Source of the DNA: Tamlana sp. I1 | GTDB taxonomy: Bacteria; Bacteroidota; Bacteroidia; Flavobacteriales; Flavobacteriaceae | DNA: 64,000 bases | Direction of reading: 5' to 3' | NCBI RefSeq assembly: GCF_015355625.1 | Contig: NZ_JACLAF010000005.1 | Coordinates: 124,001-188,000, forward strand | Part shown: piece by piece, positions 117-49,798 of the stretch | How positions within the stretch are numbered: the first letter of the stretch is position 1 | Layout: each line of letters starts with the position of its first letter | Program-made: the position numbers and the translations under genes | Notes under the pieces: generated by a model | The model's database searches: none | Seen by the model: only the letters and a program-made list of their open reading frames with translations | What the model was told of the DNA's origin: nothing

Positions 117-1560
117 GATAAAAGCAACTGTAAAACAGTTTAAAAATATAGGTCTGCTTAGTATTATTCTGCTAACCACCCTGTATTCTTGCGTACCAAC
201 TTTAGAGGTAATGCAAGAAAATAAGGAAGTACCAGAGCAGTTTAAAAACCAAGCTACCGACACCGTAAATACCGCGAAGGTTAAGTGGAATGATTATTTT
301 ACCGATGTGTATTTAAGTGCGTTAATTGAAGAAGCTCTTAAAAATAATCAGGAGTTAAATATTACTTTGCAAGAAGTTGAAATAGCAAGAAACGAAGTGC
401 GTGCCAAAAAAGGGGAATATTTACCTTTTGTTGATGTACGTGGTGGTGCCGAAGTTGAAAAAGTGGGGCGTTATACTAGCCAAGGTGCTAGCGACGCTAA
501 TAATGATATTAGGCCTGGGGAAGAATTCCCTGAACCATTAGGAAATTATGGTATCGGACTAGAAGCCAGATGGGAATTAGACATTTGGAAGAAGTTACGC
601 AACGCTAAAAAAGCTGCTTACAAACGTTATATTTCTTCAGTTGAAGGTAAAAACTTTTTGGTTACAAATCTTATTGCTGAAATCGCGAATTCTTATTATG
701 AATTGTTAACGCTAGACAATCAATTAAGTATTGTTCAGGAGAATATAAAAATTCAAAGTAATGCTTTGGAAATTGTAAGACTTCAAAAAGTAGCAGCACG
801 CGTTACTCAATTGGCGGTTACACGCTTTGAAGCCGAAGTATTGCATACCAAAAGTCTTCAATTTGATATTCAACAAAAGATTACTGAAACAGAGAATAAA
901 ATCAACTTTTTGGTAGGGCGTTATCCGCAGCCTATCGAACGCAGTTCAGAATCCTTTTACGATTTAATACCAGATCAACTTTTGGTTGGTGTTCCAGCAC
1001 AATTGTTAGATAATCGTCCTGATATTAGAGAAGCAGAACTGGAATTGGAAGCTGCTAAATTGGATATAAAAGTTGCTAAAGCTCGGTTTTATCCATCAGT
1101 AGGAATTTCAGCAGGCGTTGGTTTTGATGCATTCAAGCCTTCATTATTATTAAAAACGCCAGAATCGATATTTTACTCTTTAGTAGGAGATATTGCAGGG
1201 CCATTAATTAACAGAAACGAAATAAAAGCTTTGTATTTTAACGCGAGTGCAAAACAAATTCAAGCCGTTTATAATTATGAGCGTACTGTTTTAAACGCCT
1301 ATTTGGAAGTTGCAAACCAACTTTCTAATATTAGTAATTTGGAGCAAAGTTTTAATTTGAAATCTAAAAAAGTAGATGCTTTAACGCAGTCTATAAATAT
1401 TTCAAACATACTTTTTAAATCGGCAAGAGCAGATTATATGGAAGTGTTATTAACCCAACGTGATGCTTTAGAATCTAAATTCGAATTGGTTGAAACCAAA
1501 AAAGAGCAAATGAATGCCATGGTTAACATGTACCGTGCTTTAGGTGGTGGTTGGAATTAA
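109..1560 (+). CDS. TolC/NodT-type outer-membrane efflux lipoprotein
   Basis: A 483-residue outer-membrane factor of a tripartite efflux pump, forming the exit duct across the outer membrane. The N-terminus is a lipoprotein signal with lipobox LYSC (Cys about residue 28). Two related halves typical of the OEP family follow, with the family signatures LDNRPDIREAELELEAAK near residue 300 and YMEVLLTQRDALESK near residue 445. The ATG at 109 overlaps the stop of the preceding gene, so it is the last gene of an efflux operon and is followed directly by a hairpin terminator. The substrate cannot be predicted. Confidence 0.9.
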   Translation: MNKIKATVKQFKNIGLLSIILLTTLYSCVPTLEVMQENKEVPEQFKNQATDTVNTAKVKWNDYFTDVYLSALIEEALKNNQELNITLQEVEIARNEVRAKKGEYLPFVDVRGGAEVEKVGRYTSQGASDANNDIRPGEEFPEPLGNYGIGLEARWELDIWKKLRNAKKAAYKRYISSVEGKNFLVTNLIAEIANSYYELLTLDNQLSIVQENIKIQSNALEIVRLQKVAARVTQLAVTRFEAEVLHTKSLQFDIQQKITETENKINFLVGRYPQPIERSSESFYDLIPDQLLVGVPAQLLDNRPDIREAELELEAAKLDIKVAKARFYPSVGISAGVGFDAFKPSLLLKTPESIFYSLVGDIAGPLINRNEIKALYFNASAKQIQAVYNYERTVLNAYLEVANQLSNISNLEQSFNLKSKKVDALTQSINISNILFKSARADYMEVLLTQRDALESKFELVETKKEQMNAMVNMYRALGGGWN

Positions 1561-1603
1561 AACTTGCAAAAATTAGAGTTAGTCAATTAATTTTTCTATG
1601 AAG

Positions 1604-1639
1604 AATCCTCTTAAGTGTAATGCTTAAGAGGATTTTTTT
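1604..1639 (+). terminator. Rho-independent terminator after the efflux gene
   Basis: AATCCTCTTAAG (1604-1615) and CTTAAGAGGATT (1623-1634) form a perfect 12-bp stem with a 7-base loop. Five more T residues follow (1635-1639). It lies 43 bases after the efflux gene stop. Confidence 0.88.
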
Positions 1640-2124
1640 GGTTCAAAGGTTGGTTTGGTAAATAGGTGCTGTACTTAATCGTAATTGGTTATTTTAATAA
1701 TTAATAGGCTTTTAATTCTAAATACGTATATGGGTTTTTAGTTACTAATTTTAGGGTGTACGATTTTTATGAAAAAACCAAGCGAAGTCGTGAACATTTG
1801 CATTAAAATGTCTGTTATTTTTCCACCCAAACAACTTGTTTACCTAGTCTATTCACGAAAGCATAAAATATAACTTCTCGACTGCGAAATCGAAGACCCT
1901 ATTAACTGCCTAAATCATTCATGCTATTGGAATTTATAAAAGATATCAATACAAGATTTTATAAAAAATGGATTTAGTTTAGATTTTTCGAAAACATTAA
2001 TAAAACTTGCTCCTCCTTTCATTTTGAAGGGAGGAAAATTTCGATTTAATCGAAATTAGGAGGGTTAAAAACATAAGAGCTTTCATCTTCCTAACAATAG
2101 TGTTTAAAAACCTGAAGGGTCTCG
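1640..2124. other. Non-coding stretch between convergent efflux operon and metK
   Basis: No supported gene is seen here. The only clear structure is at 2007-2067, a CCTCC...GGAGG inverted repeat that encloses a small perfect palindrome (TTTCGATTTAATCGAAA). It resembles the GGAGG-type repeats found later in the window at 17482, 40759, 43216 and 55127. A half copy of a CCTGAA(A/G)GGTCT palindrome lies at about 2109-2122. Confidence 0.5.
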
Positions 2125-2159
2125 AAAAAAAAAGTCTTGCAACTCAAATTGCAAGACTT
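2125..2159 (-). terminator. Rho-independent terminator of metK
   Basis: On the minus strand AAGTCTTGC and GCAAGACTT form a 9-bp stem (2132-2140 with 2151-2159). A run of T, read as the A tract at 2125-2131 on the plus strand, follows. It begins 26 bases after the metK stop. Confidence 0.85.
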
Positions 2160-2184
2160 TTATATAGGTTAAGTGTATTTTGGT

Positions 2185-3438
2185 TTACAATCCAAAAACA
2201 CTTTTTACTTGGTCAACATAATCCAATTTTTCCCATGTAAATAATTCTACATCAAGGGTAATGGTTTCACCATGTGGTTGTGTAAATGTTTTAGAAACTG
2301 TTTCGTTTTTACGTCCCATGTGTCCGTAAGCTGCAGTTTCACTATAAATAGGAGCACGTAGCTTCAAACGTTCTTCAATAGCAAAAGGACGCATATCAAA
2401 AATTTCGGTTACTTTTTCAGCAATTTCACCATCGGTCATATTAAACGGGCATGTTCCGTAAGTATCAATAAAAATTCCCATAGGTTCAACCACACCAATC
2501 GCGTAACTTACTTGTACTAAAACTTCATCGGCAACACCTGCAGCAACAAGGTTTTTAGCAATATGTCTCGTCGCATAAGCAGCGCTTCTATCAACTTTAC
2601 TTGGGTCTTTACCAGAGAATGCACCGCCACCGTGGGCACCTTTTCCGCCGTAAGTATCAACAATAATTTTTCGTCCAGTTAAACCAGTATCACCATGAGG
2701 ACCTCCAATTACGAATTTCCCTGTTGGGTTAATATGGTATTTAATATCGTTGTTAAATAACTTTTGAAGGGATTCTGGAAGTTTGGCAATAACACGCGGA
2801 ATTAATATCTCAACAATATCTTTTCTAATTTTTGCTAACATGGTTTCATCATCAGCAAAATCGTCATGCTGCGTTGAAACAACGATGGCATCAATACGTT
2901 GCGGGATATTATCATCGCTATATTCAATAGTAACCTGACTTTTAGAATCTGGTCTTAAATAGGTGATCTCTTTATTTTCGCGTCTTAAATCAGCTAATTC
3001 TCTTAAAATTAAGTGCGATAAATCTAAAGCTAAAGGCATGAAATTCTCAGTTTCATTGGTGGCATAGCCAAACATCATGCCTTGGTCGCCAGCACCTTGT
3101 TGTTCTTTGCTACCGCGATCTACACCTTGATTAATGTCTTCCGATTGCTCATGAATAGCCGATAAAACACCACATGAGTTACCATCGAACATGTATTCGC
3201 CTTTGGTGTAGCCAATTTTATTTATGGTATCTCTTGCAATTTTTTGAACATCTAAATAGGTTGTCGATTTTACTTCTCCAGCAAGCACAACTTGGCCTGT
3301 TGTTACAAGAGTTTCACAAGCTACTTTCGATTCGGTATCGAATGCTAAAAAGTTATCAATTAAAGCGTCGCTAATTTGATCTGCTACTTTGTCTGGATGC
3401 CCTTCAGAAACACTTTCTGAAGTGAATAAATAAGCCAT
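2185..3438 (-). CDS. metK: S-adenosylmethionine synthetase
   Basis: Makes S-adenosylmethionine from methionine and ATP in the cytoplasm. The 417 residues match the usual family length of about 385-420. The N-terminus [20 protein letters not shown], the [12 protein letters not shown] loop and the glycine-rich [19 protein letters not shown] segment are the classic MetK signatures holding the ATP, Mg and K ligands. The gene is monocistronic, with its own terminator. Its 5' leader (3439-3575) contains a SAM-II-like riboswitch, so product feedback on expression is likely. Confidence 0.97.
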
Positions 3439-3457
3439 AGTAATTTTAAATTATAGT

Positions 3458-3567
3458 AAGATTTGACGATAACGTCGAAGGAAGTTTGCACTGCCTTTAG
3501 CATTTTTGATTATGTTGAAAATTGTTCAGCATAAAGAGGTTGCAATCAGTCAAATCTTTCCTCTGTT
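3458..3567 (-). promoter_or_regulatory. SAM-II-type riboswitch (long-loop variant) in the metK leader
   Basis: On the minus strand, P1 is AGAGG (3567-3563) with CCTCT (3539-3535). The enclosed loop is AAAGATTTGACTGATTGCAA, close to the conserved SAM-II core GAUUU..C.G..UUGCAA. An extra hairpin (TTATG.TGAA / TTCA.CATAA) follows, then AAAAATGCTAAAGGC carrying the conserved GCUAAA. The tail TGCAA can pair with TTGCA of the loop as the pseudoknot. Ten bases of the core, AAGATTTGAC (3558-3549), are exactly complementary to GTCAAATCTT (3467-3458), about 20 bases before the metK ATG. This offers a mutually exclusive expression platform. Class assignment is from consensus memory. Confidence 0.78.
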
Positions 3568-3577
3568 GTTTTGTGCT

Positions 3578-3586
3578 GCAAAAGTA
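3578..3586 (-). promoter_or_regulatory. metK promoter, Bacteroidetes -7 element
   Basis: TACTTTTGC on the minus strand matches the Bacteroidetes -7 consensus TAnnTTTG. Transcription would start near 3571, a few bases before P1 of the riboswitch. No convincing -33 TTG was located. Confidence 0.5.
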
Positions 3587-3676
3587 AAAAAATAAAAGAA
3601 AATGAACATCTATTTTTTATTTTTTAAGATATAATTGGTAATTAAGATTTTTTTGCGAATATTTGTCTCGTCTAAA

Positions 3677-3739
3677 ATGAAAAATCAAATTATTTATATC
3701 ATTTCTGTTGGTGTCAATGTGATAATCTCACAAGGCTAG
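3677..3739 (+). CDS. ilv leader peptide (attenuation)
   Basis: A 20-codon open frame reads MKNQIIYIISVGVNVIISQG and then TAG. Nine of the 20 residues are Ile (6) or Val (3), the end products of the operon that follows. It sits 64 bases after the A-rich region upstream of metK and 34 bases before a strong terminator hairpin, with ilvD starting at 4048. Composition, size and position match ilvL/ilvB-type leader peptides that sense charged tRNA by ribosome stalling. The upstream context TCTAAAATG is A-rich, as usual in this phylum. The sequence supports this well, but it has not been shown experimentally. Confidence 0.78.
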   Translation: MKNQIIYIISVGVNVIISQG

Positions 3740-3802
3740 GGAATGCTATAATTTAATCAAAATAAATTTTTAAAAGCTTTCCCGGAATGGAAGGCTTTTT
3801 TT
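3739..3802 (+). terminator. ilv attenuator: terminator with competing antiterminator
   Basis: The terminator stem AAAGCTTTCC (3773-3782) pairs with GGAAGGCTTT (3789-3798) and is followed by more T (3799-3802). GGGAATGCT (3739-3747), which begins on the last base of the leader stop codon, can pair with AGCTTTCCC (3775-3783) with one mismatch. It would then block the terminator. A ribosome stalled on the Ile/Val codons (last pair ATA ATC at 3722-3727) leaves 3739-3747 free. A ribosome at the stop codon covers it. TGTGA/TCACA (3718-3732) is a further hairpin inside the leader. Confidence 0.75.
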
Positions 3803-3851
3803 ATGCATTATTTTTCATTTTTGAACATCATAAAAAAACGGGTTTAAACAG

Positions 3852-3880
3852 TTGTTGTTCAGTGTGTTGAATTATTTTTG
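3852..3880 (+). promoter_or_regulatory. Possible second ilvD promoter downstream of the attenuator
   Basis: TTG (3852-3854), 18 bases, then TATTTTTG (3873-3880) fits TTG-N18-TAnnTTTG. It lies after the attenuator, so it would give attenuation-independent basal transcription with a long leader of about 160 bases. This is a motif match only. Confidence 0.35.
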
Positions 3881-4047
3881 TTGGTTGTGAATTTAACTAG
3901 AAAAAATAAAGATTAACCCGTATAATAGACTAATAAATTATTTTCGAAACTTATTTTGAAGTTTTTTGAATAATTGTCATCAAAAAGTTTAAAACACTTA
4001 GAAAAATAATAAAAATTAAGATAAAGCATAAAATTATTAGCAGTCAT

Positions 4048-5730
4048 ATGAAAGAACTTAATAAACATAGTAAAAGGCTAACTCAGGATGAATCTCAGCC
4101 AGCATCTCAAGCCATGTTATATGCAGTAGGATTAACCGATGAAGATATGAGCAAAGCTCAAATTGGAATTGCTAGTACTGGTTACGATGGAAATCCTTGT
4201 AATATGCATTTAAATAATTTAGCTGCTGAAGTTAAAATTGAGTGTAATATAGCTGGTTTAGTAGGTTTAGGTTTTAATACAATTGGTGTTAGTGATGGTA
4301 TTTCTATGGGGACTTCTGGAATGAATTATTCCTTAGCGTCTCGTGATATCATTGCCGATTCTATTGAAACGGTTATGAATGCTCAAAGTTACGATGCCTT
4401 GGTGTCTATCGTAGGTTGCGATAAAAATATGCCAGGTGCCGTAATTGCGATGTTACGTTTAAACCGTCCGTCTATCATGATGTATGGTGGTACCATTGCT
4501 TCTGGAAAATACAAAGGAAGAAAATTAAATATTGTTTCGGCTTTCGAGGCTTTAGGACAAAAAGTAGCGGGCGAAATTGAAGAAGAAGAATACAGAGAAA
4601 TTATAAAACGTGCCATTCCAGGAGCAGGAGCTTGTGGTGGGATGTATACAGCAAATACCATGGCTTCGGCTATAGAATGTATGGGCTTTGCGTTACCTTA
4701 TAACTCATCTATTCCTGCTGAAAATCCGAATAAATTATCGGAAAGTGAAAGAACCGCGAGAGCGATTAAAAATCTTTTAGAATTAGATTTAAAACCATTA
4801 GATATTATTTCTAAAAAATCGATTGAAAATGCCATTGCTTTGGTAAATGCTTTAGGAGGTTCTACAAATGCCGTACTACACTTTTTAGCCATTGCACATG
4901 CTGCAGATATCGATTTTACATTAGAAGATTTTCAACGTGTTAGTGACAATACGCCGTTAATAGCCGATTTAAAACCTAGTGGAAAATACCTTATGGAAGA
5001 TGTTCATGGTATTGGAGGAACGCCTGCGGTTATGAAATATTTATTAGATAATGGCTATTTACATGGCGATTGTATGACGGTTACTGGTAAAACTTTAGCT
5101 GAAAACTTAAAAGATGTTGAGCCACTCGTTTTTGAAAACGATCAAGATGTTATTTTTCCAAAAGATAAAGCATTAAAATCTTCAGGAAACTTACAAATCC
5201 TTTACGGAAACTTAGCTGAAGAAGGAGCTGTTGCAAAAATATCTGGAAACGAAGGTTTATTATTTGAAGGAAAAGCTGTGGTTTATGATGGCGAACAAGC
5301 TGCAAACACAGGAATTTCTAATGGCGAAGTAGAGCGAGGTGATGTCGTCGTCATCCGTTATGTTGGTCCTAAAGGTGGCCCAGGGATGCCAGAAATGTTA
5401 AAACCAACCTCTTTAATTATGGGTGCTGGTTTAGGAAAATCTGTAGCTTTAATTACAGATGGTCGTTTTTCTGGAGGAACACACGGGTTTGTAGTAGGTC
5501 ACATAACGCCAGAAGCACAAGAAGGTGGAGCTATTGGTCTTTTAAAAACAGGCGATAAAATTAGAATTAGTGCCGAAGATAATTCAATCAACGTATTACT
5601 TTCTGATGAAGAATTAGCCGAAAGAAAAGCGCAATGGGTGCAACCACCATTAAAACACAAAAAAGGAATATTATATAAATATGCAAAATCTGTAGCATCT
5701 GCTTCTAAAGGATGTGTTACCGATGCATAA
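4048..5730 (+). CDS. ilvD: Dihydroxy-acid dehydratase
   Basis: Dehydrates 2,3-dihydroxy-isovalerate and 2,3-dihydroxy-3-methylvalerate to the keto acids of Val and Ile; an Fe-S enzyme of the IlvD/Edd family. The 560 residues equal the usual length. Visible landmarks are the Fe-S and substrate cysteines in NPCNMH (about residue 52), [10 protein letters not shown] (about 124) and [14 protein letters not shown] (about 195), plus the C-terminal [22 protein letters not shown] signature region. It is the first gene of ilvDBNCA, behind the Ile/Val leader. A short REP separates it from ilvB. Confidence 0.97.
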
Positions 5731-5743
5731 ATAGTGAATCTTT

Positions 5744-5770
5744 TCATTTCCGTGAAAACGGGAATCTCAA
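5744..5770. repeat. Short palindromic REP copy 1 (ilvD-ilvB spacer)
   Basis: CATTTCCGTGAAAACGGGAATCT is a degenerate copy of the palindromic family ATTCTCGCGAAGGCGGGAAT. Related copies lie at 28551, 31790, 33126 and 36577. It occupies most of the short spacer within the operon. Confidence 0.6.
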
Positions 5771-5782
5771 TAAATGGGAATT

Positions 5783-7513
5783 ATGAAAACACAAACATTA
5801 AAAACAAAAAAAGTGGCAAATAAAATAGAGCGAATTACTGGTTGCGAAGCCGTTGTTAGGTCTTTAATAGCTGAGGGTGTTGATATTCTTTATGGATATC
5901 CAGGAGGTGCTATTATGCCTGTTTATGATGAATTATTTAAATTTCAAGATCAAATTCATCATGTATTAACGCGTCATGAGCAAGGGGCAGCACATGCTGC
6001 TCAAGGTTATGCACGTATATCTGGAAAAGTTGGTGTAGCCATAGCGACTTCGGGTCCTGGTGCTACTAACCTTATTACAGGAATTGCCGATGCTCAAATA
6101 GATTCTACACCTTTAGTATGCATTACAGGGCAAGTAGCGTCACATTTGTTAGGTAGCGATGCCTTTCAAGAAACCGATATCGTTGGTATTTCTACGCCTG
6201 TAACCAAATGGAATTGTCAAGTCACTAAATCTGAAGATATTCCTGCAGCCATTGCCAAAGCGTTTTATATCGCTAGAAGCGGTCGCCCAGGACCTGTGTT
6301 AGTCGATATTACTAAAGATGCACAGTTTGGCGAATTAGATTTTAACTACGAAAAATGTAAAGGAGTAAGAAGTTATAATCCTATCCCAAAAACAAGTCAG
6401 GAAGCGGTTAACGCTGCCGCGGAATTAATTAACGCCGCTAAAAAACCAATGATTGTTTGGGGACAAGGTGTTATTTTAGGTCAGGCTGAAGCCGAATTAA
6501 AAACGGTTATCGAAAAAGCTGGAATTCCTTCTGCTTGGACAATTTTAGGTGCTTCTGCATTACCATCAACACACCCATTAAATATCGGTATGGTTGGTAT
6601 GCACGGTAATTATGCGCCAAATAAATTAACTAACGAATGTGATGTGTTAATCGCCATCGGGATGCGTTTTGACGACCGTGTTACTGGCGATTTATCAACT
6701 TATGCAAAGCAAGCTAAAGTGGTTCATTTTGATATTGATCCTGCAGAGATTGATAAAAATGTAAAAACGGATGTAGCTGTTTTAGGAAATTCAAAAGAAA
6801 GCTTAGCCATGTTAGCTGAAGCTTTAAACGAGAATTCTCATGAAGCTTGGTTAAAAGAATTTAAAGACCTTTATACTATAGAATACGATGCCGTAATTAA
6901 TGGAGATCTTAATCCAACGAAAGAAGGATTAACCATGGGCGAGGTTATCAAGCAAATTAATATTCAATCTAAAGGTAATGCAGCTATTGTTTCAGATGTG
7001 GGACAACATCAAATGATTGCTTGTCGTTATGCCGATTTTAATGTGTCTAAAAGTAATATTACTTCTGGCGGATTAGGCACCATGGGCTTTGCACTTCCAG
7101 CAGCGATTGGCGCTAAAATGGCAGCACCAGAACGTGAAGTTGTAGCTATAATTGGCGATGGAGGTTTTCAAATGAATATTCAAGAATTAGGAACTATTTT
7201 TCAGCAAAAAGTGCCTGTAAAAATTGTCATTTTAAACAACGAATTTTTAGGTATGGTACGTCAATGGCAACAGTTGTTTTTCGATAAGCGCTATGCGTCT
7301 ACCGAAATGACAAATCCAGATTTTGTTACCATTGCAAAAGGCTATCATATTGAAGGAAAACGCGTTTCAAATCGTAAGGATATGGAAGCAGCTGTTAAGG
7401 AAATGATTGAGTCGAAAGAGTCGTATTTCTTAGAAGTTTGTGTAGAAAAAGAAGATAATGTATTTCCAATGATTCCTTCGGGGGCATCGGTTTCAGATGT
7501 ACGATTAAGCTAA
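5783..7513 (+). CDS. ilvB: Acetolactate synthase, large catalytic subunit
   Basis: Condenses pyruvate with pyruvate or 2-ketobutyrate, the first common step of Val and Ile synthesis, using ThDP, Mg and FAD. It has the three ThDP-enzyme domains in order: GYPGGAIMPVYDEL with the catalytic Glu (in LTRHEQGAAH) at the N-terminus, the central FAD domain, and the ThDP/Mg motif GDGGFQMNIQEL with NNEFLGMVRQWQ near residue 470. I chose ATG 5783 (576 residues) over ATG 5774 because the first three codons of the longer form abut the REP. It works with ilvN, 13 bases downstream. Confidence 0.95.
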   Translation: MKTQTLKTKKVANKIERITGCEAVVRSLIAEGVDILYGYPGGAIMPVYDELFKFQDQIHHVLTRHEQGAAHAAQGYARISGKVGVAIATSGPGATNLITGIADAQIDSTPLVCITGQVASHLLGSDAFQETDIVGISTPVTKWNCQVTKSEDIPAAIAKAFYIARSGRPGPVLVDITKDAQFGELDFNYEKCKGVRSYNPIPKTSQEAVNAAAELINAAKKPMIVWGQGVILGQAEAELKTVIEKAGIPSAWTILGASALPSTHPLNIGMVGMHGNYAPNKLTNECDVLIAIGMRFDDRVTGDLSTYAKQAKVVHFDIDPAEIDKNVKTDVAVLGNSKESLAMLAEALNENSHEAWLKEFKDLYTIEYDAVINGDLNPTKEGLTMGEVIKQINIQSKGNAAIVSDVGQHQMIACRYADFNVSKSNITSGGLGTMGFALPAAIGAKMAAPEREVVAIIGDGGFQMNIQELGTIFQQKVPVKIVILNNEFLGMVRQWQQLFFDKRYASTEMTNPDFVTIAKGYHIEGKRVSNRKDMEAAVKEMIESKESYFLEVCVEKEDNVFPMIPSGASVSDVRLS

Positions 7514-7526
7514 ATAAAGAAAAGAC

Positions 7527-8060
7527 ATGAATGAAGATATAAAAACATTTACGATTTCTATTTACACCGAAAATAACATCGGTTTATTAAATCGTATTTC
7601 AGCAATTTTTCAACGCAGACATATTAATATTGAAAGTTTAACCACATCGCAGTCTGAAATCGATGGGGTAAATCGTTTTGTTATTGTTGTGAATATGACA
7701 GAAACAAACGCGATAAAAATTGTGAAGCAAATTGAAAAACAAGTTGAAACAATTAGAGCCTATTATCATACAGAAGAAGAGACTATCTTTACCGAATCTT
7801 GTATGTTTAAAATCAAGTCTGATTTGTTGTTCAATGAGCCTCAAATTCAAAACATCATAAAAGAAAGTAATACACGAATTGTAACGGTAAATAAAGAGTT
7901 TTTTGTACTTGAAAAATCAGGAAGAAGAAACGAAATAGAGTCTTTACGTCGCGATTTAAATGTTTTTGGTATCATGCAATTTGTGCGTTCAGGACGTATT
8001 GCAGTAACCAAAGATGAAATGAAAATAACCGAATTGCTTACAGCATTCAATAATCAATAA
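7527..8060 (+). CDS. ilvN: Acetolactate synthase, small regulatory subunit
   Basis: Regulatory partner of IlvB. The N-terminal ACT domain (residues 5-80, FTISIYTENNIGLLNRISAIF and RRHINIESLT) binds valine in this family. The second ALS_ss_C domain covers about residues 85-160. The 177 residues match the usual 160-180. It lies between ilvB (13-base gap) and ilvC (16-base gap), which fits co-translation with the catalytic subunit. Confidence 0.95.
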   Translation: MNEDIKTFTISIYTENNIGLLNRISAIFQRRHINIESLTTSQSEIDGVNRFVIVVNMTETNAIKIVKQIEKQVETIRAYYHTEEETIFTESCMFKIKSDLLFNEPQIQNIIKESNTRIVTVNKEFFVLEKSGRRNEIESLRRDLNVFGIMQFVRSGRIAVTKDEMKITELLTAFNNQ

Positions 8061-8076
8061 TAACAATTAATTAAAA

Positions 8077-9552
8077 ATGGGAAATTATTTTAACACACTA
8101 TCGTTAAGAGATAAATTAGATCAATTATCGAAGTGTAGATTCATGGACACTTCAGAGTTTGCTGATGGGGTGAATGCATTAAAAGGAAAGAAAATAGTTA
8201 TCGTAGGATGCGGTGCTCAAGGTTTAAACCAAGGGTTAAACATGAGAGATTCTGGATTAGATATTTCTTATGCTTTACGTGGTGCTGCAATTTCTGAAAA
8301 ACGTCAGTCTTTCTTAAATGCTTCCGAAAACGGATTTACTGTAGGAACTTACGAAGAATTAATTCCAACAGCAGATTTAGTTTTAAACTTAACGCCAGAT
8401 AAACAACATACAAATGTGGTTAAAGCGGTGATGCCTTTAATGAAAAAAGGGGCAACTTTAGCATATTCTCATGGTTTTAATATTGTTGAAGAAGGTATGC
8501 AAATTCGTGAAGATCTTACTGTAATCATGGTAGCACCTAAGTCGCCAGGATCAGAAGTTCGTGAAGAATATAAAAGAGGTTTTGGTGTACCAACATTAAT
8601 TGCAGTACACGAAGAAAACGATCCAGAAGGAAAAGGTTGGGCTCAAGCTAAGGCTTACGCTGTTGCAACTGGTGGTGATAAAGCAGGTGTGTTAGCATCA
8701 TCTTTTATTGCTGAAGTAAAATCGGATTTAATGGGTGAGCAAACCATTCTTTGTGGGTTGTTGCAAACAGGTTCTATCCTATGTTTTGATAAAATGGTTG
8801 AAGAAGGTATCGATCCAGGTTACGCTTCAAAATTAATTCAATACGGATGGGAAACAGTAACTGAAGGTCTTAAATATGGTGGTGTAACTAACATGATGGA
8901 CCGTCTTTCTAACCCTGCAAAAATTAAAGCTTTTGAATTATCAGAAGAATTAAAAGAGATTATGCGTCCGTTATTCCAAAAACATATGGACGATATTATT
9001 GAAGGTCGTTTTTCTGCTGGAATGATGGCAGATTGGGCTAACGATGATAAAGATTTATTAGGATGGAGAGCAGCAACAGCTGAAACTGCATTTGAAAAAA
9101 CGCCTGCTGGAGATGTTCAAATTACAGAGCAAGAGTACTACGATAACGGTGTATTAATGGTTGCTATGGTTAGAGCTGGTGTAGAATTAGCTTTTGAAGC
9201 GATGGTAGATTCAGGAATTATTGATGCTTCTGCTTACTACGAATCGTTACACGAAACACCATTAATTGCAAATACGATTGCAAGAAAGAAATTATACGAA
9301 ATGAACCGTGTAATCTCTGATACAGCTGAGTACGGATGTTACTTATTCGATCATGCATGTAAGCCTTTATTAAAAGACTTCATGAAAACGGTTGACACAA
9401 GTGTAATCGGGAAGCCATATTCATTAGACAACGGAAAAGGTGTTGATAATGCCAAATTAATCGCGGTTAATAAAGCGTTAAGAGCACATCCAGTTGAAAA
9501 AGTAGGTGAGTTTTTAAGAGCATCTATGACGGCTATGAAGCCAATCGTATAA
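8077..9552 (+). CDS. ilvC: Ketol-acid reductoisomerase, class II
   Basis: Isomerises and reduces acetolactate or acetohydroxybutyrate with NADPH. At 491 residues it belongs to the long class II form, like E. coli IlvC, and not the short class I form of about 330 residues. The Rossmann motif [20 protein letters not shown] lies near residue 43, and [20 protein letters not shown] and the duplicated C-terminal helical knot domain follow. Codon use is very regular and A/T-ending, as in highly expressed genes of this genome. It is the fourth gene of the operon. Confidence 0.97.
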
Positions 9553-9562
9553 TTAAGATCCT

Positions 9563-10828
9563 ATGAGTGCGGAAAACAAAATATATTTTCCCAAAATAAG
9601 TGATATAAAGCAAGCTGCCGATACTATTAAAAAAGTATCGGCAGTTACTGCTTTAAGTCCTAGCCTAAGATATTCAAAACAATTTGATGCGAATATTCTT
9701 TTAAAGCGCGAAGACTTACAGCAAGTGCGCTCTTATAAAATTAGAGGGGCTTATAATAAAATAAGCTCGCTAACAAAAGAGCAGGCTAAAAACGGTGTGG
9801 TTTGTGCAAGTGCTGGAAATCATGCCCAGGGCGTAGCTTTGTCTTGTAAATTATTACAGATAAAAGGCACTATTTACATGCCGGCTCCTACACCAAACCA
9901 AAAGGTGGAGCAGGTTAAAATGTTTGGTGAAGATTTTATCGACATTCAACTTGTTGGCGATACTTTTGATGATGCCAATCATGCAGCCATGTTGGAATGT
10001 GAGCAATTAGGCAAAACATTTATACATCCGTTTAACGACCCAAAAGTTATTGAAGGTCAGGCCACCATTGCCTTAGAAATTCTAGAACAAACAGAAACGC
10101 CTATCGATTATGTGTTTATCGCAATTGGTGGTGGCGGATTAGCAGCTGGTTTGTCTACCGTTTTTAAAGCATTATCTCCAAACACAAAAATTATAGGTGT
10201 CGAGCCGGAAGGCGCACCATCTATGACGGTTTCTATTCAAAATAATAGAAATACCGAATTAGAACATATTGAAAAATTTATTGATGGCGCCGCAGTAAAA
10301 CGTGTGGGCGATTTAACTTTTGCCATCTGTAAAGAAAATCTTGATGCCACTGTAACCGTGCCAGAAGGCAAAGTTTGCGAAACCATTTTAGAGCTTTATA
10401 ATAAAGATGCCATTGTGGTAGAACCTGCAGGCGCATTAAGTATTTCGGCATTAGATTTTTATGCTGAAGACATTAAAGGTAAAAACGTGGTGTGTGTGGT
10501 AAGCGGTAGTAATAATGATATTACCCGAACCCCAGAAATTAAAGAACGCGCCTTATTATACGCCAATTTAAAGCATTATTTTATTATTAATTTTCCGCAG
10601 CGCGCAGGAGCTTTAAAAGAATTTGTTGTCGATATTTTAGGTGAAAATGATGATATCACCTATTTTCAGTACGCTAAAAAAACCAATCGTGAAAACGGTT
10701 CGGCAGTGGTTGGCGTGCAATTAAAATCGGCATCAGATTTAGAACCACTTATTACAAAAATGAAGCAGCGTAATTTTTATGGCGATTATTTAAATGATAA
10801 GCCCGATTTATTTCAGTTCCTTGTTTAG
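9563..10828 (+). CDS. ilvA: Threonine dehydratase (biosynthetic)
   Basis: PLP enzyme that converts threonine to 2-ketobutyrate, the entry to isoleucine synthesis. The PLP lysine is in VRSYKIRGAYN (about residue 58). SAGNHAQGVALSC and the phosphate-binding GGGGLAAGLS follow. The C-terminus (about 335-421) is a single ACT-like regulatory domain (FPQRAGALKEFV), shorter than the double domain of E. coli IlvA (514 residues) and typical of the 400-420 residue form. It is the last gene of the ilv operon, and no clear terminator follows. Confidence 0.93.
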   Translation: MSAENKIYFPKISDIKQAADTIKKVSAVTALSPSLRYSKQFDANILLKREDLQQVRSYKIRGAYNKISSLTKEQAKNGVVCASAGNHAQGVALSCKLLQIKGTIYMPAPTPNQKVEQVKMFGEDFIDIQLVGDTFDDANHAAMLECEQLGKTFIHPFNDPKVIEGQATIALEILEQTETPIDYVFIAIGGGGLAAGLSTVFKALSPNTKIIGVEPEGAPSMTVSIQNNRNTELEHIEKFIDGAAVKRVGDLTFAICKENLDATVTVPEGKVCETILELYNKDAIVVEPAGALSISALDFYAEDIKGKNVVCVVSGSNNDITRTPEIKERALLYANLKHYFIINFPQRAGALKEFVVDILGENDDITYFQYAKKTNRENGSAVVGVQLKSASDLEPLITKMKQRNFYGDYLNDKPDLFQFLV

Positions 10829-17481: not shown

Positions 17482-17549
17482 CTTCTAACCTCCCCAAAGG
17501 GGAGGAACTCCGTATGAGTTCCCCTCCTTTGGAGGAGTTAGGGGAGGAG
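17482..17549. repeat. CCTCC/GGAGG cruciform repeat in the argC-proC spacer
   Basis: CTAACCTCCCC...GGGGAGGAACTC (left) and GAGTTCCCCTCC...GGAGTTAGGGGAGG (right) are inverted copies around CGTAT. Each arm is itself palindromic. Related single arms lie at 17669, 40759, 43216, 54369, 55127 and 55218. Confidence 0.75.
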
Positions 17550-17560
17550 CATAACAGTGG

Positions 17561-17649
17561 TGCGTTAGGGATAGTAGTGGAAAGCTTTTGGCGAGTATGC
17601 GCAGCGAGCCAAAACTTGTAACGGATAGCCCGACCCTTGGGTAACGCCC
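17561..17649 (+). repeat. Dispersed structured element, copy A
   Basis: The element begins TGCGTTAGGGAT.GTAGTGGAAAGC, has a variable stem (TTTTGGC...GCCAAAA) and ends GCCCGACCC...GGGTAACGCCC. Copies B, C and D (26493, 36684, 55014) share the same 5' and 3' blocks with different middle stems. All lie on the plus strand in spacers. It resembles in my memory the Rfam Flavo-1 motif, which has not been verified here. Confidence 0.6.
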
Positions 17650-26427: not shown

Positions 26428-26492
26428 TGGTTTTTGTTTTAGGTTGAATGTTTTTGCTTTAAAGCTGAAAATATAAGATTGAAAATGAGTTC

Positions 26493-26576
26493 TGCGTTAG
26501 CGATTGCAATGGAAATCCTTTTAGGAGGTACGAATAAAAGATTGTAATGGAAAGCGCGACCCCTAGGGTAACGCCC
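26493..26576 (+). repeat. Dispersed structured element, copy B
   Basis: Contains TGCGTTAGCGATTGCAATGGAAA at the 5' end and GGAAAGCGCGACCCCTAGGGTAACGCCC at the 3' end, with a middle that differs from copies A, C and D. Confidence 0.55.
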
Positions 26577-29755: not shown

Positions 29756-29904
29756 TGTATTAATTTAGATTTTCGTATTGTTTTACGAATGTATATTTTG
29801 GTTTTGAAAAAAATGAGTTCTACATTTGTTTTTTACGATGTTAAACACAGGGATAATCTATTTAAAAAACTGATAAACAACAGTTTACGTATGTTTTTAT
29901 AACT

Positions 29905-31522: not shown

Positions 31523-31552
31523 CATTCACAAAGTTCAAAAACTTACTGAAAT

Positions 31553-31650
31553 GTTATCAAGAAAGGCAGAGGGATTAGACCCAATGAAGCCTTAGCAACC
31601 CTTTACCCGTAAAGAAGGTGCTAAATTCTACCCTTTATCGGATAGATAAC
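31553..31650 (+). promoter_or_regulatory. SAM-I (S-box) riboswitch upstream of the methionine operon
   Basis: P1 is GTTATC (31553-31558) with GATAAC (31645-31650). The core carries AAGAAAGGCAGAGGGATTAG, CCCAATGAAGCCTTAGCAACC and AAGGTGCTAAATTC, matching the S-box consensus blocks (GAGGGA, GAA.CC..GCAACC, GGTGC.AA). The metY start is 190 bases further on. No clear terminator follows the aptamer, so the expression platform is uncertain. Confidence 0.92.
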
Positions 31651-31789
31651 GACATGAAATTACCGTCTGTAGTTTCTAAATTCTTTTTAACATTTTTCTA
31701 TTAGGTTTGGGTACGCGGATATAACGCGCATTTAGCTTTTGGTTTACAAAGAAAATCAGAAAATTATATGTTCTGTGTCCTTTGAAATT

Positions 31790-36602: not shown

Positions 36603-36683
36603 TAAAGGTCTTGTTAGAAACCTAGAAGTTCAACGAGTAAAAAAAACAGTAAGATTGGCTTAAAAACCAACTTGGCAGATAAG

Positions 36684-36794
36684 TGCATTAGGGATTGAAG
36701 CGGCATCCTTTTTTTGCTGCCGCCAATGGCAAAAAAAGATATAGAAGAAAGCCCGACCTATATCCTGAACTAAATTCAGGTTATAGGGAATGCC
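36684..36794 (+). repeat. Dispersed structured element, copy C
   Basis: TGCATTAGGGATTGAAGCGGCATCC, then a hairpin TTTTTTTGC...GCAAAAAAA, then AGAAAGCCCGACCTATA, a hairpin CCTGAA...TTCAGG, and TATAGGGAATGCC. The block order matches copies A, B and D. Confidence 0.6.
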
Positions 36795-49598: not shown

Positions 49599-49623
49599 TG
49601 CGCTAGTTCATTAACGTATTAAT

Positions 49624-49798
49624 GTTATCAAGAAAGGTAGAGGGATTAGACCCAGAGAAACCTTGGCAACCCTTTATCTTGTAAAGAAGGTGCTACGTTC
49701 TACTGCTTGTGCTGAGTTTATTTCAGGAATCAATCAGACAGATAACGAATAGTATTTATTTACTTTTCTTGATGATATTATAGACTTTAAATAATATC
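49624..49798 (+). promoter_or_regulatory. SAM-I riboswitch and start-proximal hairpin of metH
   Basis: Aptamer 49624-49746: P1 GTTATC with GATAAC, core AGAAAGGTAGAGGGATTAGA, CCCAGAGAAACCTTGGCAACC and AAGGTGCTACGTTC. P3/P4 are longer than in the 31553 copy. Downstream, GATATTAT (49774-49781) pairs perfectly with ATAATATC (49791-49798), ending six bases before the metH ATG. There is no T run, which suggests control of translation. Confidence 0.9.

Follow-up and report, generated by a model that had tools for sequence, protein, structure and literature searches.

A short reading frame rich in isoleucine and valine codons, followed by an antiterminator and an intrinsic terminator that share one segment, stands before the ilv operon of Tamlana sp. 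I1, and comparison of its sequence with those of relatives leaves us highly confident that it is a classical ribosome-mediated transcription attenuator. Similar units were found before ilvD in 90 distinct upstream regions, where region 2 fits its own terminator arm better on average than the arms of other loci. Here 'the window' is the whole stretch of 64,000 nucleotides that was analysed, and positions are counted from its first letter.

Leader frame and alternative RNA structures before ilvD

The leader is encoded on the plus strand and is flanked by divergent metK (2185-3438, minus) and by ilvD. No plus-strand frame of at least 100 amino acids in 1560-4048 would need the terminator, metK being divergent. 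The features are as follows.

3635-3665, plus: predicted promoter P1, with TTG at 3635-3637, a 20-nt spacer and a -7-type box AATATTTG at 3658-3665
3677-3739, plus: leader peptide frame MKNQIIYIISVGVNVIISQG, with ATG at 3677, 20 sense codons and stop codon TAG at 3737-3739
3694-3751, plus: outer helix, 3694-3711 with 3736-3751, from the minimum free energy fold
3718-3732, plus: hairpin within the leader, TGTGA-TAATC-TCACA, covering the last Ile codons, from a 22-sequence comparison
3739-3747, plus: region 2, GGGAATGCT, the 5' side of the antiterminator, pairing with 3775-3783
3775-3783, plus: region 3, AGCTTTCCC, the shared segment that is the 3' side of the antiterminator and most of the terminator 5' arm
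3772-3802, plus: intrinsic terminator, stem 3772-3782/3789-3799, loop 3783-3788, T run 3796-3802, -12.9 kcal/mol
4048-5730, plus: ilvD, NCBIfam match over the curated cut-off
5774-7513, plus: acetolactate synthase large subunit, NCBIfam acolac_lg over the curated cut-off
7527-8060, plus: probable small subunit of 177 amino acids, from position and sequence
8077-9552, plus: ilvC, NCBIfam match over the curated cut-off
9563-10828, plus: ilvA, NCBIfam match over the curated cut-off

The operon spans 4048-10828 on the plus strand and, since it includes ilvA, makes isoleucine besides valine. The 177-amino-acid protein has no NCBIfam match at 1e-30, and we read it as the probable small subunit, ilvN. 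The genes for ilvD, the acetolactate synthase large subunit, ilvC and ilvA agree with the original prediction that the attenuator controls the ilv operon, but that control may be partial, because a conserved promoter-like module follows the terminator.

Other RNA elements occur in the window. A SAM-II riboswitch (3487-3569, minus) lies before divergent metK, which places RNA switches of two different kinds next to each other in opposite orientation; there are also two SAM (S-box) riboswitches (31551-31652 and 49622-49748, plus) and three members of the Flavo-1 RNA family, whose function is unknown (17549-17639, 26491-26565 and 36683-36762, plus).

Direct reading of the window bears out the predicted coordinates of the leader: 9 of its 20 residues are Ile or Val, and the frame ends at the first base of region 2. 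The predicted pairing of regions 2 and 3 with a single mismatch is likewise found, 8 of the 9 positions being paired and T3744:T3778 mismatched, and this helix alone amounts to -9.3 kcal/mol. The terminator had been placed at 3773-3798; it is present, but each arm of its stem has one base more, AAAAGCTTTCC (3772-3782) pairing with GGAAGGCTTTT (3789-3799) with one G-U pair and a loop of 6 nt. It was missing from the output of a simple consensus terminator scan, in our reading because the start of the T run is taken up by four A-T pairs that close the stem at its base. Folding of 3739-3788, in which the 3' terminator arm is absent, gives the antiterminator at -10.2 kcal/mol with a small inner hairpin, and the terminator is favoured when the 3' arm is present or region 2 is covered. 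Single-sequence folding energies are modest relative to shuffles, with z = -2.36 for 3660-3802 (2 of 200 shuffles equally good) and z = -1.28 for 3739-3802 (20 of 200).

Two further structures involve the leader itself. In 22 sequences, the hairpin TGTGA-N5-TCACA is paired in 96.4% of cells, and two-sided changes affect 2 of its 5 pairs although it lies within a coding sequence; by eye L133 has a GCGA/TCGC version of it. The outer helix is weaker than the other parts (75.5% of cells paired, two-sided changes at 6 of 15 pairs). For the two jointly, 5 of 500 shuffles match the count of pairs with two-sided changes. From this comparison, the hairpin is probably a pause or protector element, and the outer helix, as folded, can sequester region 2 within the leader (1:2 pairing) if the ribosome is absent.

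The geometry fits both outcomes claimed for it, judged from positions: the stop codon ends at 3739, where region 2 starts, and the last Ile codons occupy 3722-3727, the length of a ribosome footprint being taken from general knowledge. From this arrangement we infer leader translation, the ribosome footprint, termination and the amino-acid response. RNA polymerase would initiate just 5' of the frame, and a ribosome would load and translate the Ile/Val-rich peptide. With ample charged tRNA-Ile and tRNA-Val, the ribosome would reach the stop codon and cover region 2, leaving region 3 available for the terminator, and transcription would end near 3802. Under shortage of isoleucine (or valine), the ribosome would stall on Ile/Val codons, chiefly ATA ATC at 3722-3727, and its footprint would stop just 5' of region 2; regions 2 and 3 would then pair, the terminator would be blocked and the polymerase would continue into ilvD. 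Were the ribosome absent, region 2 would be held by the leader and the terminator would form.

Recurrence and coupled change in relatives

We collected 233 ilvD upstream regions from 80 named loci, 34 loci of a genus and family search and 119 fetched stretches. Of the 199 genomes covered by the family search, 152 gave an ilvD match with E no higher than 1e-200; 30 of these were used as loci, and stretches were fetched for 119 of the other 122. Removal of duplicates, short regions and regions containing N left 228 unique regions, of which the genus and family set contributed 149. To be called, a unit needed a frame of 9-40 codons that begins with ATG, in which Ile and Val numbered five or more and made up no less than 30%, and a T-tailed hairpin no more than 80 nt from the end of that frame.

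An Ile/Val leader with a terminator was detected in 90 of the 228 upstream regions (66 of 149 in the genus and family set), so the comparison upstream of ilvD that the original prediction had proposed does find conserved Ile/Val leader codons. In 74 of the 90 units (58 of the 66) there is also an antiterminator helix with no fewer than 5 pairs; near the stop codon it is absent in the other 16, several of which, by eye, have region-2 sequence within the last codons. Ile codons often lie directly 5' of region 2 across the leaders, also by eye. No unit was called in 228 reverse complements or 1,140 dinucleotide shuffles, and a chance frame is rejected on these controls. The same detector set to frames of other residues returned one region each for Leu, Ser/Thr and Asn/Gln and none of 228 for Lys/Arg, Phe/Tyr, Asp/Glu or Ala/Gly. 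By these criteria 138 of the 228 regions have no unit, including the close relatives L001, L002, L004 and L009. Inspection by eye indicates that leader and terminator are both lost in L009 and both decayed in L001, and that L002 keeps the terminator with a shortened leader. The detector overlooks real cases, as in L083, a member of the genus whose leader and terminator are visibly intact in the alignment.

The terminator arm takes two main, unrelated forms, CCTTCC (62 loci) and CCTGTATC (22 loci), with others in 6 loci, and the segment after the stop codon changes with it: GGGAATG-like where the arm is CCTTCC, TGATACAG-like where it is CCTGTATC. Across the 90 loci, region 2 scores 16.06 on average against its own arm and 12.54 against the arms of other loci (0 of 2,000 permutations as high), and the preference for the own arm holds within both classes (0 of 2,000 permutations for CCTTCC, 1 of 2,000 for CCTGTATC), permutations that do not remove shared ancestry. 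Scores across classes are low (12.07 and 9.77). The class switch, together with the separate sequences in Saprospiraceae (L043, L057 and L062) and in a genome titled Ignavibacteriae (L020), would be difficult to account for in the absence of function. From stop codon to terminator loop, the RNA also folds better than versions shuffled after the stop codon in 74 of 90 loci (z < -1; mean z -2.46).

Comparison establishes the elements, their order, their recurrence and their coupled changes at the level of sequence. That relatives share the leader codons, the terminator and the antiterminator, with changes that match one another, supports the attenuator reading of the window. Compensatory changes had been anticipated in both stems; region 2 and the terminator arm are coupled, but the terminator helix itself, paired in 87.9% of cells in 22 sequences (alignment A1), shows covariation no better than shuffles in this close set.

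The recurrence and coupling of terminator and antiterminator also argue against a leader that works through translational coupling or re-initiation, or through Rho, and not as an RNA switch, a reading we consider very improbable. Passages of PMC4833913 propose re-initiation for short frames near genes in many groups including Bacteroidetes, with distances peaking at 10-16 nt, whereas the leader stop codon lies 308 nt from ilvD.

The TTG at -33 is presumably an element of P1, whose transcript is predicted from its boxes to start near 3670, about 7 nt 5' of the leader ATG; GAATATTTGT, in the P1 region, is conserved in six of six genomes of the genus. Passages of PMC9723704 give the flavobacterial -7 box as TAnnTTTG at -12 to -5 and describe Shine-Dalgarno sequences as absent. 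In 48 of the 90 leaders a [TA]AnnTTTG box is found no further than 45 nt from the ATG, the other 42 having none, and in 31 of the 48 its end lies 8-12 nt 5' of the ATG. This distance yields predicted untranslated regions of about 4-8 nt, and leader mRNAs probably begin a few bases 5' of the AUG.

Other amino-acid operons, codon use and tandem units

Little work on attenuation in Flavobacteriia was known to the original prediction, and the papers searched do mention it only in passing, but it is not rare. Among the best 30 matches per gene in 41-genome samples, a His-rich leader with a terminator precedes hisG in 28 of 30 upstream regions (HHH or more in 26 of them) and a Trp-rich leader with a terminator precedes trpE in 23 of 30 (WWW in 22); an Ile/Leu/Val leader with a terminator precedes leuA in 0 of 30. 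In the window's own genome, the His leader (L241) reads MTFIHTHHHFQICSQAK and the Trp leader (L400), which was read separately, MKTILNNTWWWCFRN, each with a terminator. His and Trp leaders were found in no reverse complements and in none of 300 shuffles per gene, and there were no His leaders at trpE, no Trp leaders at hisG and neither kind at 151 ilvD upstream regions. By the same criterion, an antiterminator accompanies only 4 of the 28 his and 2 of the 23 trp leaders. As the collected homoserine dehydrogenase loci end short of the gene start, a Thr leader was sought in the window's own genome, where L401, upstream of a gene containing homoserine dehydrogenase, has a Thr-rich short frame, MNLFNQNTALSNSFSLKGTVTFFGTTTNITTLWGC; no T-tailed terminator was found with it, and its mode of control is possibly different.

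Riboswitches, too, typically show alternative hairpins that end in a terminator. On that ground the window's RNA could be a metabolite-binding riboswitch or a T-box RNA with an accidental short frame, but we give this reading very little credence. No Rfam family, leader families included, reaches its gathering score over 3600-4060, and the best sub-threshold match on the plus strand is itself a leader-peptide family, Phe_leader (RF01859; 3686-3804, E 0.0088), at 28.6 bits against a gathering score of 55 and with Ile/Val residues in the window, not Phe. The frame is moreover Ile/Val-rich in relatives and residue-specific, other residue sets giving 0 or 1 of 228, and His and Trp leaders stand before his and trp genes.

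The leaders that we read as attenuators differ from the ilvD genes in codon use. Of the 264 Val codons counted over the 90 leaders, 40.5% are GTC; the corresponding shares are 9.7% for ilvD genes from 114 loci and 4.8% for seven genes of the window. Other C-ending codons show no comparable rise from ilvD to leaders (ATC 16.2% in leaders vs 22.1% in ilvD, AAC 30.3 vs 31.4%, AGC 13.7 vs 11.7%); ATT (75.8 vs 58.9%), TCA (37.7 vs 20.7%) and GTG (23.9 vs 19.5%) are also raised. Both arm classes are rich in GTC (34.9% and 56.9%), and the codon appears once or more in 78 of 90 leaders. Matches to tRNAs numbered 38 for the window's own genome and 37 for a closed genome from this genus, some of them read inside a neighbouring locus; in each list the only tRNA-Val found is a single gene with anticodon UAC. 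tRNA-Ile(GAU) was found in neither list; the lists are therefore incomplete, the missing tRNAs probably being those of rRNA operons. In the same two genomes Thr, Gly, Pro, Ser and Leu each have more than one isoacceptor, including a GNN anticodon, unlike Val.

Passages of PMC1183508 set out the theory that the codons used in leaders are those on which starvation has the strongest effect. GTC would, we infer, have been chosen as a slow codon; its excess may stem from a requirement of RNA structure. The over-use of GTC with a single tRNA-Val found offers a direct test of the theory as stated in those passages.

Two complete units in series occur in 10 of 229 upstream regions (L008, L020, L029, L031, L144, L148, L157, L179, L202 and L204), with the CCTTCC-type unit first and the CCTGTATC-type second in 8 of the 10. 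At the same looser settings, none of 908 shuffles contained two units, nor did any of 229 reverse complements, one of which has a single unit. The window's own upstream region (L081) has one unit only and is not among the tandems. Tandem attenuators of Salmonella mgtCBR, described in passages of PMC3641672 as a singular example, resemble these regions in having two short frames with attenuation in one leader; there the signals are different, ATP and proline, whereas both flavobacterial leaders are Ile/Val-rich, each with its own terminator. Among the papers listed in a search for tandem attenuators with leader peptides, none appears from its title and abstract opening to concern an amino-acid operon. 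Whether attenuators in series make a response sharper could be tested on these naturally occurring tandems.

A promoter-like module and the regulatory context of the attenuator

Between the terminator and ilvD lies a module (3808-3960) whose three boxes are conserved in 21 sequences and are also present in L009, which lacks the attenuator.

3821-3833, plus: box A, TTGAACATCATAA, in the conserved module 3' of the terminator
3888-3897, plus: box B, TGAATTTAAC, 8 of 10 columns invariant in 21 sequences
3939-3946, plus: box C, TATTTTCG, the -7-like element of predicted promoter P2, with a predicted start near 3951

By eye, the position of box C reads TAnnTTTG in the more distant relatives L180, L203 and L220. 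Scored strictly, as TTGAACATCRTAA matched at no fewer than 11 of 13 positions, box A is present in 66 of 151 ilvD upstream regions (1 of 151 after shuffling) and also precedes leuA in 18 of 30 regions (0.58 per 30 after shuffling). At leuA it stands about 50 nt before TATANATTCG, itself matched at no fewer than 9 of 10 positions in 23 of the 30 regions (2.3 per 30 after shuffling). Allowing one mismatch, box A occurs in the window only at 3821-3833 (plus) and at 29833-29845 (minus) before leuA; two or more matches arise in 3 of 100 shuffles of the window. The module on the plus strand and the box TTGAACATCRTAA at 29833-29845 on the minus strand point to a possible branched-chain amino-acid regulon. 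A palindrome-like part of the module, WACTGNTNATCAGTT, is little above shuffles (leuA 24 of 30 vs 17.1; ilvD 118 of 151 vs 88) and we make no claim for it.

A sequence model of the module (R1) finds ilvD in six of six genus genomes and the window's own leuA upstream region at E 0.043; a second search with a limit of E 1 did not return that region, and 5 of 30 leuA loci were found at E < 0.1. Other weak matches have no visible link to amino-acid genes. Because box A misses the leuA box in the R1 alignments, the model is no evidence for a module common to leuA, and the evidence for a shared box rests on the box counts in ilvD and leuA upstream regions and in the window.

A frame with ATG at 3803 in the terminator tail, ending 'LNIIK...', at first looked like a conserved second leader peptide. 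It was rejected and is read as a DNA site, because L001, L004 and L009 keep the box without the start codon and the box recurs before leuA.

These boxes suggest a second promoter, P2, with a regulator site common to leuA, and if it exists its transcripts could bypass the attenuator. It is possible, if somewhat doubtful, that most operon mRNA comes from P2, that a DNA-binding branched-chain amino-acid regulator acts at P2 and leuA, and that the attenuator is functional but minor, tuning read-through from P1; this would be compatible with the best explanation. Box A is present with or without an attenuator, the loose form (12 of 13 degenerate positions) occurring in 109 of 151 genus and family upstream regions against 174 of 3,020 shuffled; strict boxes are common to ilvD and leuA, and box C resembles a -7 element. 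Against a minor role, P2 itself is predicted, with no conserved TTG at the usual distance, and the whole-module model finds the leuA region poorly. Box A and the attenuator occur together in 59 regions, the box only in 50, the attenuator only in 8 and neither in 34, a co-occurrence above expectation (odds ratio 5, p 1e-4, uncorrected for ancestry) that suggests both are in use.

None of the parts of the window's attenuator is a novel element type, and the mechanism is already known. As described in passages of PMC1183508, the trp, his, ilvGMEDA, ilvBN, leu, thr and pheA attenuators of E. coli and Salmonella likewise combine a control-codon leader, an antiterminator and terminator and a matching operon. 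The window differs from them in having Ile/Val codons without Leu, a predicted start a few nucleotides 5' of the leader AUG although the group lacks Shine-Dalgarno sequences, an antiterminator that starts at the leader stop codon itself and a conserved promoter-like module 3' of the terminator.

In the same family, passages of a 2021 Flavobacterium psychrophilum transcriptome study (PMC9723704) report 'strong clues' of leader-peptide attenuation before amino-acid operons of the same kinds; 'ilv' occurs 0 times in its main text, and those passages contain no structures or tandem units. Outside Proteobacteria, PMC11857589 and PMC10272879 concern an attenuator or upstream frame before the branched-chain operon ilvBNC of Corynebacterium glutamicum, in another phylum and before another operon. 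Short frames of Bacteroides thetaiotaomicron are called reminiscent of leader peptides in passages of PMC7366714. The best-ranked literature matches, in a search that left subscription papers mostly outside, included no ilv, his or trp attenuator in Bacteroidota. A comparative attenuation study by Lopatovskaya, Seliverstov and Lyubetsky, cited in PMC4833913 and dated 2010, may conceivably have predicted the ilvD attenuator already.

We tentatively propose, as a joint reading that we hold to be possible but not probable, a coherent and largely undescribed attenuation regulon in Flavobacteriaceae (ilv, his, trp and perhaps thr) that would be adapted to translation without Shine-Dalgarno sequences. 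In it, leader mRNAs would start about 4-8 nt 5' of the AUG for immediate ribosome loading; valine would be sensed mainly at rare GUC through wobble of the single tRNA-Val(UAC), making the leader ribosome hypersensitive; and stacked Ile/Val attenuators would multiply the response in some lineages, with P2, under a branched-chain regulator common to leuA, bypassing the switch.

The comparison points to well-supported and widely recurring ribosome-mediated attenuation in Bacteroidota, a mechanism that the papers searched mention only in passing. Its occurrence in bacteria without Shine-Dalgarno sequences raises the question of tight coupling between ribosome and polymerase there. For the organism, the attenuator would very probably let the cell make the isoleucine and valine enzymes only under shortage of these amino acids.
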